In this document: positions 5-54,698 of the stretch, in pieces | Position numbering within the stretch: position 1 is the first letter of the stretch | Layout of the letters: the number at the start of each line of letters is the position of its first letter | Virus record (IMG/VR): IMGVR_UViG_3300022939_000021 | Span: 1 to 60,537 of that record | Reading direction: 5' to 3' (one strand) | DNA from: a virus | Length of the DNA stretch: 60,537 nucleotides | Position numbers and translations under genes: made by a program | The notes under the pieces: generated by a model | The model's input: the letters and a program-made list of their open reading frames with translations, nothing else | Database searches by the model: none | Told to the model about the DNA's origin: nothing

Positions 5-775
5 TTATGTTGGCAATATTAGGTTTTTAAATTCTGTATGCACTTGCTTGTTAAAGTGTCCTTCGCGACGCATACCATAGTTGTGATGTTGTTTTGCCCA
101 TTGACTAAAACTAAACGTATCGAACTTATAGTAATGTTCGTCAAATGCTTTATCTATTAAAATGTTAGGTCTAATTTTAAGTCCTCTGTTCCATTCATGA
201 ACGTTATTATGCATAAAGTATTTGATGTTATTTGATTCACAAAAGTTCTTTACAAGCATTATATAACCAAACCATTTTTCGTGTTCTAGGTCTTCGTCCC
301 AAAGAAACTGAGCACAAAACATTTGTGCATCGTCACCAAAATTACAAACTAGTTCACCGTTGCCGTCTTTCATCCATTTAGTAGTATTCGGGTTAACAAA
401 GTTGGTTCCAAACATTTCAATTTCAGTTGATAGCATACCAAGTGGAGGCCATGCTCCAATCTTTTTTAAATTTTTAATTTCTTCTTTTGCTGTAATTTCT
501 AATCTGTTAATACCACTCCAACCTACTATAACAAATACTTTAGAAAGATCTTGTCCTTCCTGTTGAAGTTTCATTAAATCTAATACAGTTGTACGTGCAA
601 TCCATTCATTAGGCGCACCAGGCAATGCACTGTTCATATTATTTGCAATACCTAGATCATCTGTAATTTGCATTGGATAAGCATGGTATTTGTTTTCTTC
701 GCTAACGTTAGCATCACCTAAAATTTCCATTCCGTGTGTAAAACTATCACCACAAGCATAAACTAAATCAAACAT
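5..775 (-). CDS. SGNH/GDSL hydrolase-like protein
   Basis: The 256-residue product begins with a hydrolase block I, GDSFTHG at residues 9-15, whose Ser11 would be the nucleophile. A GAPNE segment near residue 54 and a C-terminal REGHFNKQVH segment with His240 fit blocks III and V of the SGNH fold. No signal peptide or membrane segment is visible, so it probably acts in the cytoplasm or is carried in the virion. Proteins of this fold in phages with glycan islands are often esterases or acyltransferases acting on sugars; the substrate here cannot be read from the sequence. The block with the usual GxND is not clear, so activity is uncertain. It lies 4 bases downstream of the oxygenase gene and probably shares its message. 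Confidence 0.6.
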   Translation of the reverse strand: MFDLVYACGDSFTHGMEILGDANVSEENKYHAYPMQITDDLGIANNMNSALPGAPNEWIARTTVLDLMKLQQEGQDLSKVFVIVGWSGINRLEITAKEEIKNLKKIGAWPPLGMLSTEIEMFGTNFVNPNTTKWMKDGNGELVCNFGDDAQMFCAQFLWDEDLEHEKWFGYIMLVKNFCESNNIKYFMHNNVHEWNRGLKIRPNILIDKAFDEHYYKFDTFSFSQWAKQHHNYGMRREGHFNKQVHTEFKNLILPT

Positions 776-779
776 TTTT

Positions 780-1304
780 TCACCTATAATTAAACGTTAT
801 TACAAACCTATATCCAGGCTGTCTTGGACTGCTACTGCTATGATATTGTAGTCCGTTAAATGTAATTAGCGTATTTTCTTGTGGCTTAACAGTGTTTTGA
901 ACTGTGTAGTTTTTAGCCGTTGTAGGGTAAAACTCGTTGTAAAACACAGTTGGAGCATCGCTATTGTTTACGTAAAATAAACTAGTTGTATGTTCAGTTT
1001 CAAAGTCAACGTGCGGAGAATGATATTCATTTTCTTTTTGTCCTGAATAAAATATAAATCCTACACGACAACGTATAAGTTGCTTATTATTTAAATGTTC
1101 TAAAATAGGATTTAACAAATATGCTAGACTTGGATTTTCTAATTTATTATCGTCAAACACAGTTGTACTAAACCCATATTCCATATTTCCGCTTCCGTAA
1201 GCAACGTTATGATTAAACGTCCACGGAATAAGATTGCTAGTTAAATTTTGTTGTAGCAATAACAGATCTGTTTTTTCTAGTACGTTTTCCTTAATATCAA
1301 TCAT
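780..1304 (-). CDS. 2OG-Fe(II) oxygenase-like protein
   Basis: This 174-residue protein carries the iron and 2-oxoglutarate ligand pattern of the jelly-roll dioxygenase superfamily: HVD at residues 98-100, a distal His155 in QYHSSSS, and Arg166 in GYRFVITF. Family members hydroxylate proteins, nucleic acids or small molecules using Fe(II), O2 and 2-oxoglutarate. The start overlaps the end of the primase gene by 8 bases, so it is likely translationally coupled to primase. The substrate is unknown. It is one of four such proteins in the window, which are not obviously close paralogues of each other. Confidence 0.75.
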   Translation of the reverse strand: MIDIKENVLEKTDLLLLQQNLTSNLIPWTFNHNVAYGSGNMEYGFSTTVFDDNKLENPSLAYLLNPILEHLNNKQLIRCRVGFIFYSGQKENEYHSPHVDFETEHTTSLFYVNNSDAPTVFYNEFYPTTAKNYTVQNTVKPQENTLITFNGLQYHSSSSPRQPGYRFVITFNYR

Positions 1305-2301
1305 TGAAATATGTCTTTGCTACTACTTCTATTTTAAGTTTATTTGTTTCAATACTGTTTATAATTTGTTTTAGTGTATATATTCTACCATACTTTCTAA
1401 CAGCATCATTAACATCTTTTATGTCTTTATCCCACGGCGGAAAACTAACACACCAACCATAGTGCAATGCACTTTCTACAAGATCCTGTCCTGCTTTATC
1501 TCTATCAGGAACAACAACTACTTGCCGTTGTAAACTGTTAATTAACATTGCTTGTTGATCGCTGATGTCATTACGTAGTACAGCAACACCGTCAATTGAA
1601 ATAGCATCAATTGGTCCTTCAACAACAAAACAATAACGTCTATAATAGTTTTGTCTATCTAAATTAAAAACATACCCCGGTTGGCTATCTGTAATATATT
1701 TGGGGGAGCCGTCTCCTATCTTTCGAGCAGTGTATCCGACTATGTCCCCTTGATAATAGAATGGTATAATCAGCCTTGACTTATATGAACCCTCTGGAGT
1801 CCACATAAAATCATAATCATCTACCATCAGGCCTCTGCCTAAAATATATTCAACGGCTCCTATGAATTCTGATTCTAAGTCTTCAGGTTTAACATCATCT
1901 CGTCTTAACCTGTCTGCTATTAGACTAGCCCCTGACGCAAGTTTCTTAGTTTCAAATGTTGGTGTAATAATTACGTGTTCATCATTTGAATTCTCTTTTA
2001 ATTTTAAAGCCTCAAGACTGATTCTTGTAATCTCAGAATCTGGCATACCTAACCATCCTAATAGTTTACGCATCTTATAAGATATGTTTCTACCAGGAAC
2101 ATAACTGGTTGTATACCCGCAGTTAAAGCAATGATAACTTATAGTACCATCACCATTAAACATCATACCACCACGCTTACGCTTGTCTGCACCTTCGCCA
2201 TTGTGTATACAGCAAGGTGCATCAAAAGAAATCCACCCACTAGGAGTTTGTTTTCTTTTCGAAGGTAATGCGGCGGTGACACTAGATTGAATCGAATTCA
2301 T
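1297..2301 (-). CDS. 61: DNA primase (T4 gp61-like)
   Basis: The 334-residue protein has an N-terminal zinc-binding module (Cys30/Cys31, His33, Cys58, Cys61) followed by a Toprim core with the acidic motif VVEGPIDAISI around residue 228 and the DxD motif VPDRDKAG near residues 266-268. This order is that of T4 gp61, which makes RNA primers for lagging-strand synthesis together with the gp41 helicase. Length matches T4 gp61 (342 residues). A sigma70 promoter lies immediately upstream, and its predicted start point falls at or next to the ATG. The gp41 helicase partner is not in the window. Confidence 0.93.
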   Translation of the reverse strand: MNSIQSSVTAALPSKRKQTPSGWISFDAPCCIHNGEGADKRKRGGMMFNGDGTISYHCFNCGYTTSYVPGRNISYKMRKLLGWLGMPDSEITRISLEALKLKENSNDEHVIITPTFETKKLASGASLIADRLRRDDVKPEDLESEFIGAVEYILGRGLMVDDYDFMWTPEGSYKSRLIIPFYYQGDIVGYTARKIGDGSPKYITDSQPGYVFNLDRQNYYRRYCFVVEGPIDAISIDGVAVLRNDISDQQAMLINSLQRQVVVVPDRDKAGQDLVESALHYGWCVSFPPWDKDIKDVNDAVRKYGRIYTLKQIINSIETNKLKIEVVAKTYFND

Positions 2302-3155: not shown

Positions 3156-3527
3156 ATGGCAATTAGAAACGAAGAATTAGAACAATCAATACCGTTTATT
3201 AGCGGTATCAAACACGCAAACAACGAGTACGTTGGGATCATTATTAATCAAGATCACAGCGTCACAAGTATTTACGATCTTGCGAATTGCACTGACGAAG
3301 AAAAAACATTAATCTTACAGTGCGGTGAAGTATGGTGGTGGGAATCAAACAGAAAACTTCCTATTAACATTTTCCTTAAAAGAGAAATGCAGTTGTTCAA
3401 ACACATGATTAAAAGTTTCAATACAAAAGATGTTGAGATACTTTTTGGTCCTGTTGTTAGATTACACGATATTGCACAAAAACGTGTTAAACGCAAAAGC
3501 ATTCAACTAGTTCGTAAATTAAAGTAA
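3156..3527 (+). CDS. hypothetical protein, 123 residues
   Basis: I do not recognise this protein. It is a compact 123-residue product with a tryptophan run (VWWWES, residues about 59-64) and a basic C-terminus (KRVKRKSIQLVRKLK), which could contact nucleic acid. It is the only plus-strand gene in the first 12 kb, divergent from the structural gene at 3117 and converging with the DksA-like gene, whose stop codon is directly adjacent. Its own promoter is not obvious; only a weak purine stretch (GAAAG) precedes the ATG. Confidence 0.7.
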   Translation: MAIRNEELEQSIPFISGIKHANNEYVGIIINQDHSVTSIYDLANCTDEEKTLILQCGEVWWWESNRKLPINIFLKREMQLFKHMIKSFNTKDVEILFGPVVRLHDIAQKRVKRKSIQLVRKLK

Positions 3528-3785
3528 TTAGTTAAACTTTTCGTGTAGGTTAGCACAGTCTACACACAGTTCCACTCCCGGTACTACTTTTCTTCTTGCT
3601 TCAGGAATTTCATTTCCACACTCAATACATTCTTCTAAACTTGGTTTAGATTGCTTTTCACTCATCATATCTCTATGCTTTCGTAATGCGGCTTCGTTTT
3701 CAAATAGTGCGGCAACTTGTGCTACTTCTGCCTCTTCTTCGTTATTGTATTCAAAAATAAAATGTTCTTCGTTGTTATTATTCAT
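3528..3785 (-). CDS. DksA/TraR-type zinc-finger protein
   Basis: The 85-residue protein is acidic at its N-terminus and ends in a four-cysteine zinc finger (CIECGNEIPEARR, then LCVDCANLHE), the signature of the DksA/TraR family. Family members enter the secondary channel of RNA polymerase and modulate initiation; the short TraR forms found on plasmids and phages mimic DksA plus ppGpp. The coiled-coil finger is much shortened here, as in TraR (73 residues). A role in tuning host RNA polymerase is inference. The start codon lies inside the last codons of the polymerase III alpha-like gene, with an 8-base overlap. Confidence 0.8.
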   Translation of the reverse strand: MNNNNEEHFIFEYNNEEEAEVAQVAALFENEAALRKHRDMMSEKQSKPSLEECIECGNEIPEARRKVVPGVELCVDCANLHEKFN

Positions 3786-4347
3786 ATAGTTCTTCGCAAA
3801 TTAAATTCATATGTACCACAATCGCATGAGCATATGCTACTGCGTGTGCTTTTTTAAAATAATAGGATCCGTCTTCAGGTTTCGTCCAAACGTTCTTCAT
3901 CACCGTATCCCACGGTTGTCCAAGCAAACTCCTCTTCGCGGGACGTATAATCGCTAGTACCGCCGCCAGTTGCTCTATGCTCGTTGGTTTCATTTCTTTT
4001 AGAATGTCGCTGTGTTCTGCGACGTGAAATAAGTTGTTGCTGAAGTCTGGCTCGGTAAGTAATTCCCATAACGGTTCCTTTTGTAATAGTGTATTTAAAT
4101 GATTTTCGTCTTTTACTTTCTCATAGATATGAACATTTAACATATCTATTTTAAAATATCCTCTTTCGTCTGCTTCTTTGTGATCGATAGTACAGATATC
4201 TGTAAAAGGATTGACAGGTGCATTATGAAAATAAATTCCTGTGTTGTGCTTTTTAAGAGTTCCTTTTTCTATTCGCGAGGCCTTAATGTGCTTGAAATTT
4301 TCTAGCACTTTTTCACGATCAAAAAAATCTAAATCAACATCAGGCAA
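3778..4347 (-). CDS. condensed DNA polymerase III alpha-like protein
   Basis: The 189-residue protein matches pieces of the bacterial DnaE palm and flanks in the same order. MPDVDLDFFDR (1-11) corresponds to the MPDFDVDF motif that carries two catalytic aspartates in E. coli alpha. KHNTGIYF (33-40) fits the KHAGGVVI region. YFKIDML (64-70) fits KFDFLGL, which holds the third aspartate. LFHVAEHSDILKEMKPTS (106-123) and LAAVLAIIRP (127-136) fit FQLESRGMKDLIKRLQPD and MIALVALFRP. YFKKAHAVAYA (163-173) fits FNKSHSAAYA. PHP, helix-hairpin-helix and OB domains and most of the fingers are missing; E. coli alpha is 1160 residues. Polymerase activity seems unlikely, and the role is unknown. It sits with gp62 and a zinc-finger gene, with overlaps on both sides. 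Confidence 0.7.
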   Translation of the reverse strand: MPDVDLDFFDREKVLENFKHIKASRIEKGTLKKHNTGIYFHNAPVNPFTDICTIDHKEADERGYFKIDMLNVHIYEKVKDENHLNTLLQKEPLWELLTEPDFSNNLFHVAEHSDILKEMKPTSIEQLAAVLAIIRPAKRSLLGQPWDTVMKNVWTKPEDGSYYFKKAHAVAYAHAIVVHMNLICEELYE

Positions 4348-5023
4348 TGTTTGCTTCCTTTATTATTTCTTTTACTAGTTTAACATCATCTTTGTTATTT
4401 GTAAAGTGTTTTTTCCAATATATAATATCTAAAACAGGTTCAATAATATTCAAGTGTTCGTCGTTAAAACTTTCTAAAAGTTGAACACCTTCTGCAGAAT
4501 TTAATAACATCCATGGACTAATACGACCATATCTAATATCATTAACTGCTCTATTATGATTTACATATTTGAAATAATCGTTATATGGTGCTTGGTTTTT
4601 ATCTCCCCAATCCATCATAGTTTCTAACGAACGTTTAACTGCACCCTCTACAGGTTCTACTTTGATCATCTCAAATAGATATGTGTCATACAATTCATCA
4701 CGACACCAATGATCTAATTTAACTCCGCTTTTAATTACAAAGTCAATAAATTTCTCTGGGTATATACAACTTACGTTTGTCACAAAACTACCAAATTTAA
4801 CAAACGCATTATAGTAAGAACTTTTACAAAATTCTTCGTATGTTTTAGGTTTACTCTTTTGTACAGTTTGATAGAACTTATTAAATGTTAAAAAGCCAAC
4901 TTGTACACGCTTTTCATCTTTTTGCAAATGTCGTCTCTTTGGTTCGCACAAGTGAGCAACAAGGGTCTTTTCTTTTTGAAACCCTTTGCCACAATGTACA
5001 CACTCAAAGTCACGTTTATTCAT
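4340..5023 (-). CDS. zinc-finger protein of unknown function
   Basis: The 227-residue product has an N-terminal C2H2-like finger (CVHCGKGF, then a distal His and Cys in LVAHLCEPKRRH) followed by a mostly helical body of about 190 residues. The ATG at 5023 was chosen over an in-frame ATG 69 bases upstream because it gives an 8-base overlap with the preceding gene, as at neighbouring junctions, and starts directly before the finger. Its position between a clamp-loader-like gene and a polymerase-like gene suggests a DNA replication or transcription role, but no known family is recognised. Confidence 0.7.
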   Translation of the reverse strand: MNKRDFECVHCGKGFQKEKTLVAHLCEPKRRHLQKDEKRVQVGFLTFNKFYQTVQKSKPKTYEEFCKSSYYNAFVKFGSFVTNVSCIYPEKFIDFVIKSGVKLDHWCRDELYDTYLFEMIKVEPVEGAVKRSLETMMDWGDKNQAPYNDYFKYVNHNRAVNDIRYGRISPWMLLNSAEGVQLLESFNDEHLNIIEPVLDIIYWKKHFTNNKDDVKLVKEIIKEANIA

Positions 5024-5465
5024 TTGGATCACGTTCTTCCATATATTCTTTTTGTTCGCTTTTTGACATAATAGTTGATAAGGCTGTTGCATCGTCTACC
5101 TTCATATTAGGATTTTTATCTAGTACGTATTGTTCAAATTTATTCTTTGCTTGTTTCTTTGGAGCCGCAACATACTGATGGAAAAAGTTTTCATAAGCAC
5201 CACACATTGCCATTAGTTTCCATAGCAGTCCTTTGTGATTTTTGCTTAATGTCCAATGATGCTTATTGACAAATTCGTTTGTCATTTCTAAATAATGTTC
5301 TTGGAAAAACTGATCGCCTTTTACATTGCTTACATAACGCATTGCAATAAACGGTGCAAATAACTTTTTATCGTCATCACTAAGTTTATTATACCAGTCT
5401 TTGTCTCTACGATCAACTGCTCGTAGCATTGCTTTTAAATCAAGAAACTTTTTCTTTTCAGCCAT
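5016..5465 (-). CDS. 62: clamp-loader small subunit (gp62-like), tentative
   Basis: The 149-residue helical protein resembles the short gp62 of marine T4-like phages in length and pattern: an N-terminal helix (KKKFLDLKAMLRAVDRRD), a FAPFIAMRYVSNV segment and an NKHHWTLSKNHKGLLWKLM segment. In T4, gp62 joins four gp44 ATPases to load the gp45 clamp on DNA. Identity with T4 gp62 itself (187 residues) is too weak to see by eye. gp44 and gp45 are not in the window, so operon context cannot confirm the call. The start overlaps the upstream oxygenase gene by 8 bases. Confidence 0.55.
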   Translation of the reverse strand: MAEKKKFLDLKAMLRAVDRRDKDWYNKLSDDDKKLFAPFIAMRYVSNVKGDQFFQEHYLEMTNEFVNKHHWTLSKNHKGLLWKLMAMCGAYENFFHQYVAAPKKQAKNKFEQYVLDKNPNMKVDDATALSTIMSKSEQKEYMEERDPNE

Positions 5466-6054
5466 GCTTTACTCCTACAATATTCATACTCATTACAATT
5501 CTATTTTCACTTACAGTGTTTTCCTGTACTCTATGTGATAACCAAGCAGGAAATAATAATATATCGTTAGTATTACATTTTACTTCCTGCCAGAAGTCTT
5601 GTCTACTGAAATCTGCATGACTTCTTGGCATATATGTCCAACTTGAATGCAATGGATTTCTAAATTCAATATTTCCACTGTTTTGGGGTTTTTCTAAGTA
5701 GATACTTGCCGCCATATGTGCAGGACTATGATCGTGTTCAATTACGTATCCACCTTTATTAGTTATATTTGTCCAACTGTTCATTACTTCTAACGGAATA
5801 TCTTGCATATCCCATTCTTTCCAAACTGATTCTACAACTGGTTGAAGCCATACCATAAAGTCGTGTAGTTCTTCCCACATATGTGGATCTTGGTCGTTAT
5901 GATTAGCGTTTGTTTTTCCACCACCACGCATACTACCTGCATCTGATGGCATAAGCATTGTTTGTTTAGTAGCACGAACAACCGCAGATGAGAAATCTCC
6001 TGGATAAGTTGCTTTCCATACTAGCGTTGGTGTTGTGCTAATTGGTTGAATCAT
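5458..6054 (-). CDS. 2OG-Fe(II) oxygenase (putative prolyl hydroxylase-like)
   Basis: The 198-residue protein has the dioxygenase ligand set: EHDHSPAH around residue 107 (HxD/H pair), a distal His in LSHRVQ near residue 174, and Arg in SENRIVMSMN near residue 184. The layout, with MNSWTNITNKGG just before the first His, fits the phage and bacterial 2OG family often annotated from TIGR02466. The substrate is not known. It overlaps the 77-residue gene upstream by 17 bases and gp62 downstream by 8, so it belongs to the same operon. Confidence 0.8.
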   Translation of the reverse strand: MIQPISTTPTLVWKATYPGDFSSAVVRATKQTMLMPSDAGSMRGGGKTNANHNDQDPHMWEELHDFMVWLQPVVESVWKEWDMQDIPLEVMNSWTNITNKGGYVIEHDHSPAHMAASIYLEKPQNSGNIEFRNPLHSSWTYMPRSHADFSRQDFWQEVKCNTNDILLFPAWLSHRVQENTVSENRIVMSMNIVGVKHG

Positions 6055-6272: not shown

Positions 6273-6893
6273 TTATCCTTGTTCTTTATCTGCTAACTTG
6301 CCCTTAAGGTAGTTAAGTAGAACACCGTATGCTGGTAAGAAAATAATCAAACCAACTACAATTTTAAGAACAACTTGTGAGCCTGCAATTTCAACCCAAT
6401 GTGTTGCCATATATTCATCAGCACTGTTATTAAATGCAACAGCGAAGAATGTATACGTGTCAATTACGTTAGCAACAATAGTTGATAATGCCGGTGCCGC
6501 CCACCATGCTTTTGTATATGCTTCTCTGATATATTGAAAAACATAAACGTCTAAAAATGTACCAATAGCATAAGCAGTTGCTGATGCAAAGCCAATACGT
6601 AGTGCTACACTTTCAGGTGCACCTTCAGCAAGTACTACTGCAATAGATCCAATAATGGCTAAAGGATATGCCGCCGCAATAGTTGCTCGTGCAATTGATT
6701 TACCTAACAATCTAACTGTTAAGTCAGTTGCTAAGATTACTAACGGGAACGTAAATGCCGCCCAAGTTAGTTTAACGCCTGCGATCTCAACTGGAATGTT
6801 GACTAGGGCGTTTGAGATTGTGATAACAACAACATGAAGAAATGCTAATTTCAACATCATTGCTTTATCAACGTCTTTAAAAAGTCCAAACAT
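6273..6893 (-). CDS. queuosine precursor transporter (YhhQ/QPTR family)
   Basis: The 206-residue integral membrane protein has about six hydrophobic helices and the family motifs FPLVILATDLTVRLLG (residues about 49-64), AIGTFLDVYVFQ, WWAAPALSTIVANVIDTYTF and HWVEIA followed by FLPAYGVLLNYL. E. coli YhhQ imports the 7-deazaguanine precursors preQ0 and preQ1 for queuosine in tRNA; viral 7-deazaguanines are also used as DNA modifications that resist restriction. Length matches YhhQ (221). No other queuosine-pathway or transglycosylase gene is in the window, so the end use here is unknown. A cupin gene lies directly upstream. Confidence 0.85.
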   Translation of the reverse strand: MFGLFKDVDKAMMLKLAFLHVVVITISNALVNIPVEIAGVKLTWAAFTFPLVILATDLTVRLLGKSIARATIAAAYPLAIIGSIAVVLAEGAPESVALRIGFASATAYAIGTFLDVYVFQYIREAYTKAWWAAPALSTIVANVIDTYTFFAVAFNNSADEYMATHWVEIAGSQVVLKIVVGLIIFLPAYGVLLNYLKGKLADKEQG

Positions 6894-8472: not shown

Positions 8473-9927
8473 TTAATCAATTTCAATCCTTTCTATTGTA
8501 AAGGGGTAATTAGCCTCTTTATAAAACTTTTTACGTTGTGTAAGATGTCGTTTGGCATACTTACATCTGCTTGTAATGTCCCAAATTTGGACATGGTCTT
8601 TGTCCTCAGCCTTTCTAATTCCGCGGCCAATTGACTGAATAACACGTACAAAAGACTTACCAGGCTCAATAAGAATAAGGTTAAAAATGCGAGGAATATT
8701 AATGCCAACTGCGGCAACACCGTAAGTTGCAATAATAACTTTTTTATCAGCAGTTTTAACTTCATCATAATGTTCTTTCCTTGTGTCTGCTTTTGTTTCT
8801 CCACTAATGAAGACACTGTCATTAATATATGATTGTAGCATATTACCTGCAGAAAGTCTATCAACAAGTACCAAAGTATTGCCATTTTCGCTTATTTTGG
8901 CAATTAATTTTGAAACCCATTCCATTCTTTTTTCGTTTGTTGTTAAATATTTTAATTCTTCTTGGTATGATCTAAACTCTTGTACATCTTCAGTTTGAAT
9001 AATGTTTACATCACATTGTGCAAGTACACCCTTTGCTTGTAGATCACTTGCACTAATGTTATTAATAACATCACCTAAACTTGCTCTAATGCCTTGAAAC
9101 TCAAATTGCTCTTTAGGTATAGTACCTGTTAGTCCCCAGCGAATAGGAACGTGTGCAAAGTTTTGTGTAAGCAAGTTTTTAAGTACATCTGCTTTTGCTT
9201 GGTGTACTTCGTCAACAATAATACAACGAACATCTTCCATTGCTTCTTGGAAAGTCACTGCCGCTTCGTGATTCTTAGTTTTCTTGCTAAGAATGTTTAA
9301 ACTTTGCCAAGTACAAATTGTATGAGTGTGACCCAACTCTTTTCTATCACCAAAGTACACACCTACGTCTAGGCCGCAATTGACATAGTCTTCTTCTGTC
9401 TGCGTCACCAACGATTTGTTAGGAACAATAACTAGGCTACGCCCATATGGTTCACATAAACGCGAAAGTGTAGCAGTGATAATAGTTTTACCTGCACCAG
9501 TTGCAACTTCTTGTAGTGCTTGTGGATTAGATAAAAAGTTATTAATAACTTCAAGTTGGTAGTCACGTAAACGAATAGGTTGTCCTTCTGCAGGATGTCC
9601 TTTAGGCCAACAAGTGTCACCCCAAAACTCTTCATCAATTGTTGCAAAGTTAAGTTGTGTTGGTTCACGCAAATCTTCTACTTCTACATATACTCCTTTG
9701 CTATCTAGTTCAACAAGAACTTCTTCAAGCATACTAATATATGTTGTACCACCTAGTCCAAAGAAACTTACAGTACCGTCCCATCGTCCTAGTTTATATG
9801 CAGGCAAATATCTTGCATACGGAATCTCATATTTAAATTTGTTTACAAGATGTTTACGCATTTGAAGATCAAGACCTTCAAACTTTACGTTTACTTCATC
9901 TTTAATAATAAGTTTACAAGATGCCAC
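8473..9927 (-). CDS. uvsW: UvsW DNA/RNA-DNA helicase
   Basis: The 484-residue superfamily 2 helicase has an N-terminal DNA-binding domain, motif I ATGAGKT (residues about 142-148), motif II VDEVH (about 239-243), motif III GLTGT, and C-terminal motifs with SIGRGIRKAED (motif VI). T4 UvsW unwinds branched DNA and R-loops, ends origin-dependent replication and rescues stalled forks. Length is close to T4 UvsW (503). The start overlaps the preceding 401-residue gene by 14 bases, and both probably use the promoter at 11157-11184. Confidence 0.92.
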   Translation of the reverse strand: MASCKLIIKDEVNVKFEGLDLQMRKHLVNKFKYEIPYARYLPAYKLGRWDGTVSFFGLGGTTYISMLEEVLVELDSKGVYVEVEDLREPTQLNFATIDEEFWGDTCWPKGHPAEGQPIRLRDYQLEVINNFLSNPQALQEVATGAGKTIITATLSRLCEPYGRSLVIVPNKSLVTQTEEDYVNCGLDVGVYFGDRKELGHTHTICTWQSLNILSKKTKNHEAAVTFQEAMEDVRCIIVDEVHQAKADVLKNLLTQNFAHVPIRWGLTGTIPKEQFEFQGIRASLGDVINNISASDLQAKGVLAQCDVNIIQTEDVQEFRSYQEELKYLTTNEKRMEWVSKLIAKISENGNTLVLVDRLSAGNMLQSYINDSVFISGETKADTRKEHYDEVKTADKKVIIATYGVAAVGINIPRIFNLILIEPGKSFVRVIQSIGRGIRKAEDKDHVQIWDITSRCKYAKRHLTQRKKFYKEANYPFTIERIEID

Positions 9928-51838: not shown

Positions 51839-53704
51839 TTAATCGGATTTGCCCGACAGTGTTGTTCCATATCTTGAATTAAATTTATTAAACAAAAATC
51901 TGTTATTGCCACCTAAAAGAGACCTGTTATTTGTATATGAAGCATCATCTCCTGGATTATATATAAGATTTGTTTTTGCATTTCCAGTAATCCAGGCCTT
52001 TACTTCTGCCGGTGTTGCTTCTGGATTAACTTGCAAATATAATGCACACATTCCAGCAACTTGTGGACTGGCCATGCTAGTTCCTGAAATATTTACTTGT
52101 TTAAACTCGCTATTCAAATAATAATCTTGACCGTTGAATCTGTTTGTATTACTACAAGCACTCATAATGTCAGTTCCAGGTGCCCAAACATCTACGCCAG
52201 GGCCGCATTCTGAACTTACATTTTTCTGCTCTTCATCAGAGCCAGCAATTTGAGAGTCAATATTTCCTACAATAATTGCTTCGTCGTCGTATGGAGAAGC
52301 ACCTCTATGATAATACCTAGCACCATAAAATGTTGAATTATAATAGTTGTCATAATCATCTCCTCCAGGAACATCAATTTTTTGGTATGAGTTTCCTGCC
52401 GCAACACAAATATTAATTCCTTCATCAATCATTTCTTGTATTTCTATATCAACTGAACTTACTCTTGTACCATATCTATAACCTGCTAGGCCGTAATAGG
52501 CTCCAACCATGCCATATTGTGTTTCTCTACTTGTTCCTGACCATGGTGTACCTCTATAAGTACCACCATTGATATTTGAAAAATAAGTTCCATATCCCCA
52601 ACTCATATTAACAACTGTTGGTCTAAACTTTTTAGTTGTTGAATAAATTGCTCCAGGCAACGCACTTACAAATTTGTGAGTTGTTGTGTCTGAAGAAATT
52701 CCGATATTAACAGTAATAGTTGTTGACGTAGTTCCGGTGATTGCAACTTCCTTATCATAGTACGGATCGGTTCCAGTACTATTAGGAACACCAACACCCC
52801 TTGGATAATCATGTACTGACGCATCGTTGTCTTTTGCACACGTAAATCTTAAACTTCCTGCTACAATTCTTATTTTGTCACCTACAACAAACGGGTGTGT
52901 TCCTAAAGTTAAACTCATTACTCCGGTGCTTGGAGTATATGTTGCCGCTGTTGGTGTAAATTTACTTTGTTTTCTTCTGTGCCATTCTTTAATAACATCA
53001 AACGCATCTGCTGTTGGAATTCCTGTTCCGCTATCTCCACTTCCTTCTAAACCACCAAGTTTTACACTGTATATTCTAGCATTTTTTGCCCAACCATAAT
53101 TTTTACCTGCTACTGTGCCAGCAACGTGTGTTCCGTGGCCGTCATAATCTCTATAATGATTAGCACTCTGTGTTCCAGTTAGACCACTAGCATCATACCA
53201 ATCAATTTGTTGTAAACGAGTATTACCTTGTGCATCTTCCCATTCAGGGTGATCTACTTCTATTCCGCTATCTTGAATTACAACATCTACTCCTGTTCCG
53301 TCTAAATGATATGTGTATCCTCCAGATACATCTGAACCATCATAAGGATTAGTTGTAGCATTAACTCTTGGCAATCCCCAATTTTGAAAATCGCCTGCAG
53401 ATTCGGTTGTTTTTGTAAAGTTTCCTGTTTGTTCTACTGATAAACCAATTTCAATATCATCTCGTTGATCTGCTGGAAGTTCAACACAGTAGACTCTATT
53501 ATCAGAACGAAGTGTTTCTGCTTCGCTGTCTGTAAGCATATAATGAGTTAGTCTTTGTGAAGCAGGTCTAGGGTTTGCAACAGATACTGCTCTATTAGGA
53601 ATGGCTCCTGAGCCTGTTATTCTAATCATTTCAGCGTTAAACTGTACAAAGTCTACGCCTCTATTAAGACCTACAATATATTCTCTTTCCATACTATGCC
53701 CCAA
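51839..53704 (-). CDS. subtilisin-like (S8) protease with inserted tail domain
   Basis: The 621-residue protein has the S8 triad: Asp145 in IQDSGIEVDH, His190 in YDGHGTHVAGTVAG and Ser543 in ISGTSMASPQVAG, with oxyanion Asn438 in VAAGNSY. An N-terminal 110 residues may be a propeptide-like or tail-binding part. Between His and Asn, about residues 245-345, is an insert (GVMSLTLGTHPFVVGDKIRI, FTCAKDNDASVHDYPR) that resembles the beta domain found repeatedly in marine T4-like tail proteins. No signal peptide. It overlaps the upstream tail gene by 11 bases. A virion protease acting on tail proteins or the cell surface is likely. Confidence 0.85.
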   Translation of the reverse strand: MGHSMEREYIVGLNRGVDFVQFNAEMIRITGSGAIPNRAVSVANPRPASQRLTHYMLTDSEAETLRSDNRVYCVELPADQRDDIEIGLSVEQTGNFTKTTESAGDFQNWGLPRVNATTNPYDGSDVSGGYTYHLDGTGVDVVIQDSGIEVDHPEWEDAQGNTRLQQIDWYDASGLTGTQSANHYRDYDGHGTHVAGTVAGKNYGWAKNARIYSVKLGGLEGSGDSGTGIPTADAFDVIKEWHRRKQSKFTPTAATYTPSTGVMSLTLGTHPFVVGDKIRIVAGSLRFTCAKDNDASVHDYPRGVGVPNSTGTDPYYDKEVAITGTTSTTITVNIGISSDTTTHKFVSALPGAIYSTTKKFRPTVVNMSWGYGTYFSNINGGTYRGTPWSGTSRETQYGMVGAYYGLAGYRYGTRVSSVDIEIQEMIDEGINICVAAGNSYQKIDVPGGDDYDNYYNSTFYGARYYHRGASPYDDEAIIVGNIDSQIAGSDEEQKNVSSECGPGVDVWAPGTDIMSACSNTNRFNGQDYYLNSEFKQVNISGTSMASPQVAGMCALYLQVNPEATPAEVKAWITGNAKTNLIYNPGDDASYTNNRSLLGGNNRFLFNKFNSRYGTTLSGKSD

Positions 53705-54698
53705 ACACTATCGAATAAACAATGTCAGCAGAGTCAACATATTCTCTAGTTGTCACTGATTGTGGATCACTTGATCTTGTAATATTCTCTGACATTAATA
53801 ATTCTGTAAATTTTCCTGTAGAAGGTTTACCCGCTCCTATTCTAGTATTTTCAATTGATGTATTCACAACTGGTAAATTGCTACCAGAGGAAGTAATTCT
53901 TCCTTGTTCAATATCGTTAACAGTAAACACAACAGCATTACCTGCTTTAAATTCTAAATTAGACTGAGATTCTAATGTTGGCTCACCCGCTGAATCAATT
54001 TTAAAACTTTTTGCAATAACATTTCCGCCAACAAATAAGTCTTTTGCAATACCTACGCCGCCAGCAGTAATTAATGATCCAGTAGTAGGACTTGTTGACT
54101 GTGTAGTATTTGTTAGTGTTAATTGTCCACTTTGAGAAATATTTGCATTAACAGCAAGGTCATCTCTAAATTCACTAGTTCCAGTGACTAATAAACTAGT
54201 AAAACTACCAATACCTGTAATTTCTGGATCTACAAAAACAAAATCGCCTCGAATAGCATTTGCTACATCAGCATAATAATATCCACTTGCAGTTGCAGGA
54301 ACTACCCATTCAACATATCCATCTTGTTTATTATGTGCTAAATTACCTGTAGAAACAGTACCGTCTTTAACGTGTTGAATATCTGCTGTGACTAAGTTAT
54401 CGTTTTCGTCTCTAATATTAAAACTAATAGATGTTAGATCTAAATTAAAACGATAAGTTCGGCCTTTTGTTAATGTAATATCTGGATTTCCGTCTGTTCC
54501 ATCAACAGTAAAGTTTCCATTTGATTCACCTATTGCAATTTCAACTGTTGTGAGTGTATCAGAAACCTGTTGAATAATATCTTCAATTGGTGTTTCACTT
54601 GATAAACTTTTTACAGATACATTACCGTCAGCATCAACCGTAAATCCCGGTCCTTTGAAGCCATATTTACTGAAAAATGGATTTAGTGTGACTGCCAT
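53694..54698 (-). CDS. tail fibre/structural protein
   Basis: The 334-residue protein has a short N-terminal FFSKYGFKGPGFTVDADGNV segment, a cupredoxin-like beta region (ITLTKGRTYRFNLD, GYVEWVVPATASGYYY) near residues 75-150, and a fibre-like part with TSPTTGSLITAGGVGIAKDL followed by VGGNVIAKSF, typical of trimeric phage fibre shafts. It ends in YVDSADIVYSIVFGA. It likely connects to the tail baseplate. A GGTAAATA site and TAGGAG ribosome-binding site lie upstream. Confidence 0.75.
   Translation of the reverse strand: MAVTLNPFFSKYGFKGPGFTVDADGNVSVKSLSSETPIEDIIQQVSDTLTTVEIAIGESNGNFTVDGTDGNPDITLTKGRTYRFNLDLTSISFNIRDENDNLVTADIQHVKDGTVSTGNLAHNKQDGYVEWVVPATASGYYYADVANAIRGDFVFVDPEITGIGSFTSLLVTGTSEFRDDLAVNANISQSGQLTLTNTTQSTSPTTGSLITAGGVGIAKDLFVGGNVIAKSFKIDSAGEPTLESQSNLEFKAGNAVVFTVNDIEQGRITSSGSNLPVVNTSIENTRIGAGKPSTGKFTELLMSENITRSSDPQSVTTREYVDSADIVYSIVFGA

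Follow-up and report, generated by a model that had tools for sequence, protein, structure and literature searches.

The window analysed here is a viral DNA sequence of 60,537 nucleotides (IMG/VR record IMGVR_UViG_3300022939_000021, positions 1 to 60,537). Its minus strand carries an open reading frame (ORF) of 189 codons whose product, here called the mini-palm protein, corresponds to part of the catalytic core of the alpha subunit of bacterial DNA polymerase III (Pol III; DnaE in Escherichia coli), a C-family polymerase. The ORF is read from 4347 to 3778 and begins with TTG; ATG occupies the same start place in most of the 47 distinct IMG/VR relatives that were aligned with it. The gene and its motifs are as follows.

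3778..4347, minus strand: mini-palm gene, 189 residues, family phrog_11778, probable C-terminal half of a split minimal Pol III alpha; content, the metal-binding part of the palm, the index finger, and the start of the ring finger
4354..4359, minus strand: AGGAAG, resembling a ribosome-binding site, six bases ahead of the TTG
4327..4341, minus strand: codons of D3-x-D5-x-D7 (E. coli D401, D403, and D405)
4144..4152, minus strand: codons of K66-I-D68 (E. coli K553 and D555; D68 is the third catalytic aspartate)
3934..3945, minus strand: codons of R135-P-A-K138, a fingers block (R135-P136 correspond to E. coli R639-P640)
3832..3858, minus strand: codons of F164 to Y172, FKKAHAVAY (H168 and Y172 correspond to E. 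coli H760 and Y764)

Sequence, conservation, and fold of the mini-palm protein

The first-pass annotation of this DNA had claimed, without stating the strand, that 3778–4347 encodes Pol III alpha palm blocks in order, and this is borne out. In a MAFFT alignment with E. coli DnaE, the blocks occur in the expected order, with D3, D5, and D7 on D401, D403, and D405, H34 and G37 on H511 and G514, K66 and D68 on K553 and D555, R135 and P136 on R639 and P640, and H168 and Y172 on H760 and Y764. The family phrog_11778 ('DNA polymerase') matches residues 3–186 with an expectation value (E) of 9.8e-68, and the protein fits the C-terminal piece that this family represents in its DxD, KxD, and fingers blocks and in its length of about 190 residues. 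In tblastn searches, 65 cultured-phage records match the mini-palm protein, all at less than 60% identity and 61 of the 65 over at least 80% of its length; no match was found in plasmids. In IMG/VR, 79 mini-palm loci were found.

Conservation was assessed in an alignment of 59 rows: the window, 11 cultured phages, and 47 distinct IMG/VR proteins, one of which is identical to the window's row. The IMG/VR proteins represent 77 loci, after exclusion of two partial ones. The three catalytic aspartates and 18 further positions are invariant in all 59 rows (D3, D5, D7, H34, G37, P44, K66, D68, L70, L87, W94, P121, L127, A128, A132, I134, R135, P136, K138, H168, and Y172); the aspartates, whose loss from most homologues had been named in the first-pass annotation as evidence against such an assignment, are thus retained throughout. 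Several invariant positions meet other residues in E. coli, for example P44 on G534 and K138 on R654. According to passages of PMC3919608, the catalytic aspartates of the C family are D401, D403, and D555, which are absolutely conserved, and D405 is kept in DnaE and replaced by Asn in PolC. The invariance of the equivalents of D401, D403, D405, and D555 therefore indicates that the mini-palm protein is DnaE-like and that its metal site is intact.

The gene is under purifying selection. The ratio of nonsynonymous to synonymous substitution rates (dN/dS) is 0.11–0.13 in six of six comparisons with relatives by NG86, and 0.10–0.11 in the three of these that gave an estimate by YN00. Large parts of DnaE are missing, which would suit a decaying relic of a captured host polymerase; however, that explanation is refuted by the conservation, and the same two-piece form, described below, recurs in uncultured phages and in phages whose hosts range from Vibrio to Agrobacterium, so that we regard a relic as extremely unlikely.

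Because matches of single sequences to DnaE are weak, family profiles and fold comparison were required. In a Pfam scan the mini-palm protein alone matches PF17657 (fingers) at E 0.011, under the cut-off of that family, and 20 of 23 members of the mini-palm family match it at E up to 1 (best 3.3e-5). DnaE chains in the PDB match the mini-palm sequence at E 0.79 and 1.3, and no usable alignment with E. coli DnaE was obtained from the mini-palm profile by hhalign. An AlphaFold2 model of the protein (predicted local distance difference test, pLDDT, 92.1; predicted template modeling score, pTM, 0.76) was compared with known structures by VIA-align, in which 14 DnaE or PolC entries align over 173–189 residues with Z 6.0–9.5 and the best unrelated entry reaches Z 3.4; the absence of similarity to a C-family palm that would have told against the assignment is thus not what is seen. 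The model covers residues 400–781 of E. coli alpha colinearly, and Foldseek ranks 1 to 15 are all occupied by C-family entries.

The same comparison locates what is absent. The spacing from D7 to H34 is 26 residues in the mini-palm protein and 105 in E. coli (79 fewer), and about 28 residues separate P136 from the ring-finger block, compared with 116 in E. coli; we take the first gap to be the place of the thumb in E. coli alpha and the second that of most of the middle finger. No PHP, HhH, or OB family was matched at E up to 1 in Pfam scans of two sets, one of 23 mini-palm members and one of 11 members. The fold match stops at E. coli residue 781, and the clamp- and tau-binding regions of E. 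coli alpha presumably lie after that residue. Unlike E. coli DnaE, the enzyme has its catalytic core in two chains, and it has no PHP or thumb, little of the middle finger, and no (HhH)2, clamp motif, or OB. The mini-palm chain starts at the DxD block and is also without the GS motif for binding of deoxynucleoside triphosphate (dNTP), which is found in another gene. The first-pass description of a replicase reduced to a mini-palm is thus correct as to the C-family palm but incomplete, as the dNTP-binding GS half is encoded by a separate gene in relatives.

The reduction itself suggests an alternative in which the halves do come together but the resulting enzyme, having no thumb, is not a templated elongator and instead acts, for example, in the processing of ends, in the filling of very short gaps, or in nucleotidyl transfer related to primers. 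The missing thumb and most of the middle finger favor this explanation, as do the retention of the active-site residues and the nearness of the gene to primase and helicase genes. The index and ring fingers of Pol III touch template and dNTP, and the blocks belonging to both are kept and invariant in the mini-palm protein, which argues for elongation. In addition, PolC and some DnaE3 enzymes already have a strongly reduced thumb, as noted in part of PMC3919608. We therefore consider a non-elongating enzyme rather unlikely.

The partner gene and its co-occurrence with the mini-palm gene

The GS half was recognized by PF07733 when 16 genomes and contigs were searched. This family is above its cut-off in all 11 cultured jumbo phages, where the matches are small ORFs away from the mini-palm gene and fall within positions 13–98 of the 260-position profile; it is over its cut-off in none of the five IMG/VR fragments searched. 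The partner ORFs bear GxGRGS and end soon after it, near E-F-L/F, and the three members scanned belong to phrog_11127. The IMG/VR loci kept were the best 80 of at least 589, and a second set of 80 brought those kept to 160. Three candidates for the partner were set aside: a weak PF07733 match in contig G003 is the mini-palm gene itself, a partner-profile match in contig G020 is a different, unsplit DnaE-like gene, and the gene directly upstream of the mini-palm gene in the window (4340–5092) belongs to phrog_11058 and has no GRGS in its translation, the real GS half being located elsewhere.

The two halves are complementary. A partner profile built from the cultured set matches residues 209–392 of E. 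coli alpha (E 2.3e-5). A structure model (pLDDT 83.2) of the partner protein encoded by one of the window virus's relatives matches 16 C-family entries with Z 8.2–12.9, the next row having Z 2.5, and lies on residues 277–393 of E. coli alpha with Z 10.2–11.5, its first approximately 70 residues being uncovered in the fold alignment. As the partner reaches residue 393 and the mini-palm protein begins at residue 400, the palm of alpha is tiled without overlap, with the break between 393 and 400. In the 11 cultured phages, subtraction of coordinates gives distances of 14 to 224 kb between the two genes.

Catalytic subunits encoded by two genes are also known from cyanobacteria, in which split DnaE carries intein halves and is trans-spliced to full length. 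The phage pair differs in that no intein halves are present at the ORF ends: mini-palm ORFs of the 11 cultured phages start one to 18 residues ahead of the DxD block, and partner ORFs end 35–41 residues past the start of GxGRGS in all 80 of the first set of kept IMG/VR loci. Joining by protein splicing, as in the cyanobacterial pair, is refuted by the lack of room for intein halves and has a practically negligible probability.

The partner accompanies the mini-palm gene consistently in complete or long sequences. Among 60 of the 65 mini-palm phage records that were listed (some are GenBank/RefSeq duplicates), 59 match the partner at 1e-10, and the exception is a record of 109.5 kb. Eleven of the IMG/VR contigs with one of the 160 kept partner loci are 200 kb or longer, and the mini-palm gene is also present in 10 of them (7/8 and 3/3 in the two sets). 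The remaining contig (G031, 359 kb) was set aside as a counterexample, as it seems incomplete in the module concerned, because tblastn finds no UvsW, primase, gp41, or either neighbor gene of the mini-palm gene there.

Relatives that are 56–57% identical are found in ocean metagenome-assembled genomes (MAGs), for example Tara Red Sea and Pelagibacter bins, from which the lineage of the window is probably marine. A small partner is present in three of the four MAGs that hold a mini-palm contig (132–161 bits), and cellular-type dnaE frames (1137–1147 residues) reach only 29–36 bits. Mini-palm genes also occur in contigs (L369–L378) that had been placed in MAGs from many phyla, an archaeon among them, and such contigs are probably jumbo-phage contigs binned with cellular genomes.

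The partner also bears on the suggestion of the first-pass annotation that the mini-palm protein might be a regulator or decoy of the host replicase, acting alone by binding host DnaE or the clamp. The protein is small and homologous to host alpha, as such a decoy would be. However, the GS half is a separate, conserved gene in related genomes, which makes one split enzyme the natural reading, and with a phage-encoded GS half in 59 of the 60 listed records the mini-palm protein has a natural partner of its own. Moreover, its catalytic residues are invariant, and its match to alpha ends before the clamp- and tau-binding regions. A regulator or decoy is therefore very unlikely.

For the window's own virus, two overlapping contigs (G001 and G002) contain the window at 99.98% identity, G002 in its entirety, and together span approximately 227 kb. 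An exact pattern taken from the end of G002 leads to three further contigs (G063, G065, and G067), in which the partner is located approximately 9 kb beyond the point matching the G002 end. Where aligned, these contigs are 75–91% identical to G002 and have the same order save for one 580-base segment; at this identity they were rejected as the same virus and are regarded as relatives. None of the second set of 80 kept partner loci overlaps G001 or G002 at same-species identity, the best match being 92.1% over 216 bases. From the gene order in the relatives, we infer that the partner is present in the window's virus.

Replication neighborhoods and other polymerases

The genes around the mini-palm gene in the window are as follows.

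1297..2301, minus strand: DNA primase, T4 gp61-type (phrog_47, E 2e-40), in the same module as the mini-palm gene
3156..3527, plus strand: phrog_11637 gene, convergent with the mini-palm gene; the family is also found beside the mini-palm gene in phage 121Q
3528..3785, minus strand: DksA/TraR-type zinc-finger protein, 85 residues (PF01258, E 7.9e-13; phrog_54), stand-alone, sharing 8 bases with the end of the mini-palm gene
4340..5092, minus strand: phrog_11058 protein, 250 residues, upstream of the mini-palm gene with an overlap of 8 bases
5016..5465, minus strand: phrog_11758 protein, with no match to a clamp-loader family
8473..9927, minus strand: DNA helicase, UvsW-type (phrog_16 'DNA helicase', E 2.9e-78), in the same module as the mini-palm gene

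The UvsW name of the helicase is an assignment that follows annotated relatives. Both 8-base overlaps, with a DksA-like gene and with a zinc-finger gene, had been reported in the first-pass annotation and are confirmed, the finger in the 4340–5092 protein being a weak C2H2-like one (best PF12171, E 2.6e-4, just under the cut-off); its 'gp62-like' label for 5016–5465 did not find confirmation. When nine genes in eight cultured phages were scanned, phrog_11058 was found upstream of the mini-palm gene in five of the eight (121Q, Atu_ph07, Paride, Vibrio 2.275, and Phosso) and was not recognized in SCTP-2 (two genes), XacN1, or RAS14.

In most of the genomes viewed, both halves sit in replication modules. 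In the window, the mini-palm gene has the primase on one side and the UvsW-type helicase on the other. Of the 11 cultured phages viewed, nine (Atu_ph07, Paride, RaK2, Phosso, SCTP-2, Vibrio 2.275, GAP32, 121Q, and XaC1) have, within a few kb after the mini-palm gene, a helicase gene of the gp41/DnaB type, which is annotated under that name, as a primase-helicase, or as DnaB-like. In seven of these nine (Paride, RaK2, Phosso, SCTP-2, GAP32, 121Q, and XaC1) a helicase, UvsW-type where named, is annotated upstream; the upstream gene of Vibrio 2.275 is annotated only as a P-loop NTPase, and no upstream helicase is annotated in Atu_ph07. The neighbors differ in XacN1 and RAS14. The partner is located 0.7–2.7 kb from the clamp-loader gene gp44 in all eight loci viewed (121Q, Atu_ph07, Paride, XacN1, GAP32, G036, G067, and G031), and no recognizable gp44 was found in the approximately 227 kb of G001 and G002. 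Where the loci were mapped gene by gene, the partner and gp44 are separated by two to five small genes, including a co-chaperonin in 121Q (annotated 'chaperonin') and G036 (PF00166) and a gene annotated 'head morphogenesis' in Atu_ph07 and GAP32, the same PHROG label being attached to the co-chaperonin gene of G036. In several loci the GS-half gene is followed by a small gene with a conserved NARGD-type stretch (e.g., L158:6328–6705), the G036 copy of which matches phrog_14844.

Other genes of the window's virus include a 2OG-Fe(II) oxygenase at 5458–6054 (minus strand; PF13759, E 3.4e-17) and a multi-pass membrane protein at 6273–6893 (minus strand), which in our view resembles queuosine-precursor transporters of the YhhQ/VUT type. 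Two neighboring genes that resemble each other (window 5–775, minus strand; G001 53344–54108, minus strand) have a GDS motif close to their start and are probably tandem SGNH/GDSL-type hydrolases.

The split enzyme is accompanied by a second polymerase. A family B polymerase is present in all 11 cultured phages and in G002 (12 of the 16 records, the other four being fragments), and in all 11 long IMG/VR contigs, ten of which carry both halves and one (G067) the partner only. That of G002 has 890 residues, with matches to motifs A, B, and C and with DIE at 107. As this polymerase is found throughout the complete genomes and long contigs examined, the split enzyme exists in addition to a family B polymerase of full length. 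As an obligate third part, a DnaQ-like exonuclease was considered and rejected, since PF00929 is matched in 9 of 11 cultured phages but in only 1 of 13 IMG/VR contigs.

The gene neighborhoods near primase, helicase, and clamp-loader genes, and the presence of a family B polymerase in the complete genomes and long contigs examined, would also be compatible with a role of the two proteins as structural subunits derived from a polymerase, serving the phage replisome without catalysis as a scaffold or as a sensor of dNTP. This explanation leaves the invariance, across hosts, of the three metal ligands, of the lysine beside the third of them, and of GRGS without a reason, and we judge it distinctly unlikely.

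Unsplit DnaE-like proteins are also found in phages. The gene at L044:14286–15911 (the same gene as L122:1471–3096) encodes a DnaE-like protein of at least 542 residues without PHP (phrog_405, E 2e-69) and lies directly after gp41 in a contig that carries a mini-palm gene as well. The protein resembles the split enzyme in its GS, DxD, KxD, and ring-finger motifs, and differs from it in being one chain with a longer spacer between DxD and KVD and in its location directly after gp41. Pieces of the same gene are located at the ends of three further mini-palm contigs (L048:13696–14868, L055:15158–15334, and L061:14069–14365). Should the GS half and a family B polymerase be present in these phages too, three polymerase systems would coexist in them. 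PHROGs 13169, 11165, and 7513 are weakly matched by the partner or by the L122 protein; these families cover the C-family core only in part, the GS motif being close to one end of the profile, and may be further split or trimmed forms of DnaE.

A probable two-chain minimal C-family polymerase

The homology, fold, invariant catalytic residues, complementary halves, co-occurrence, and replication neighborhoods described above make it likely that the mini-palm protein is one half of a two-chain minimal C-family polymerase, most probably an active accessory polymerase of a T4-type jumbo phage; its physical assembly, catalysis, and role are deduced from those observations. The N-terminal half (approximately 180 residues) would contribute the initial, helix-rich portion of the palm together with GRGS, the motif that binds dNTP, and the window's half the metal-binding strands (equivalents of D401, D403, and D555) and shortened fingers. 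The two would assemble non-covalently into one active site, as is expected because neither ORF has room for an intein. The hold on DNA and processivity would be supplied from elsewhere, because thumb, clamp motif, and OB are absent along with PHP, (HhH)2, and most of the middle finger. The role would be that of an accessory polymerase, in repair, gap filling, or synthesis of one strand, rather than that of the main replicase, which is likely because all complete genomes and long contigs examined also have a family B polymerase.

Several points weigh against this reading. Single-sequence matches to DnaE in Pfam, NCBIfam, and the PDB have E of 0.01 to about 1 (5.4 for one NCBIfam row), the mini-palm profile reaches only E 0.0099 against PDB sequences, and the best Foldseek match of the mini-palm model is weak (E 1.2e-3). 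The structure models cover each half as a monomer only, and with the thumb and most of the middle finger absent, unaided DNA binding may be too weak. As for co-occurrence, only 2 of 40 partner contigs shorter than 200 kb also hold the mini-palm gene, which is expected from the distance between the genes and is uninformative; the split partner is found in none of 27 mini-palm records (the window and 26 contigs, fragments of up to 182 kb), and one of the four MAGs with a mini-palm contig is without the small partner. Finally, the partner was not found in the window, G001, or G002 (approximately 227 kb), and its presence in the window's virus would follow from relatives that are 75–91% identical and have one segment out of order.

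Enzymes of this kind are already known from comparative genomics. Iyer et al. (2021; PMC7824862) describe group 2.2 jumbo phages with a family B polymerase and a previously unrecognized minimal Pol III alpha, composed of separate proteins from distant genes, one an NTP-binding part and the other a Mg/template-binding part; it is proposed there that the halves perhaps cooperate in one-strand synthesis or repair and are perhaps a model of ancestral versions. The pair described here consists of the same two small proteins from distant genes (phrog_11778 and phrog_11127) beside a family B polymerase, so the 'new enzyme' of the first-pass annotation comes closer, although an enzyme of this type was already on record. 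Single pieces had been seen in genome papers: a 'truncated' alpha of 172 residues in phage CBB (PMC5259590) and gp316 in Atu_ph07 (PMC6102473). No experimental study of the split enzyme was found in searches of an open-access library beyond PMC7824862, in whose main text the word 'thumb' does not occur. The window's member differs from those described in PMC7824862 in coming from an uncultured, probably marine lineage and in that its partner would lie beyond its available contigs. To the earlier description, the present analysis adds the break point and the conservation of residues, the absence of the thumb, the location of the partner near the clamp-loader gene, and this probably marine lineage itself.

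In this group of jumbo phages, two replicative polymerases of unrelated type occur together, one of them cut into two small proteins that must meet to form one active site. It is possible, and we propose it tentatively, that a thumbless two-chain C-family polymerase of approximately 370 residues in total is active next to the family B replicase of jumbo phages, among them uncultured and probably marine ones, with one sub-lineage having a further, single-chain C-family polymerase without PHP beside its helicase gene. To our knowledge, such a pair would be far smaller than any known core of the bacterial-replicase type. The exact break, the invariant residues, and the existence of cultured members that grow on laboratory hosts, such as phage Sharanji, whose record names E. 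coli K-12 MG1655, make the split enzyme directly testable. If active, it would provide a minimal model of the bacterial replicase core and raise the question of why a split enzyme is kept beside a family B polymerase; it would also be a living model of how the palm of Pol III could arise from two modules.
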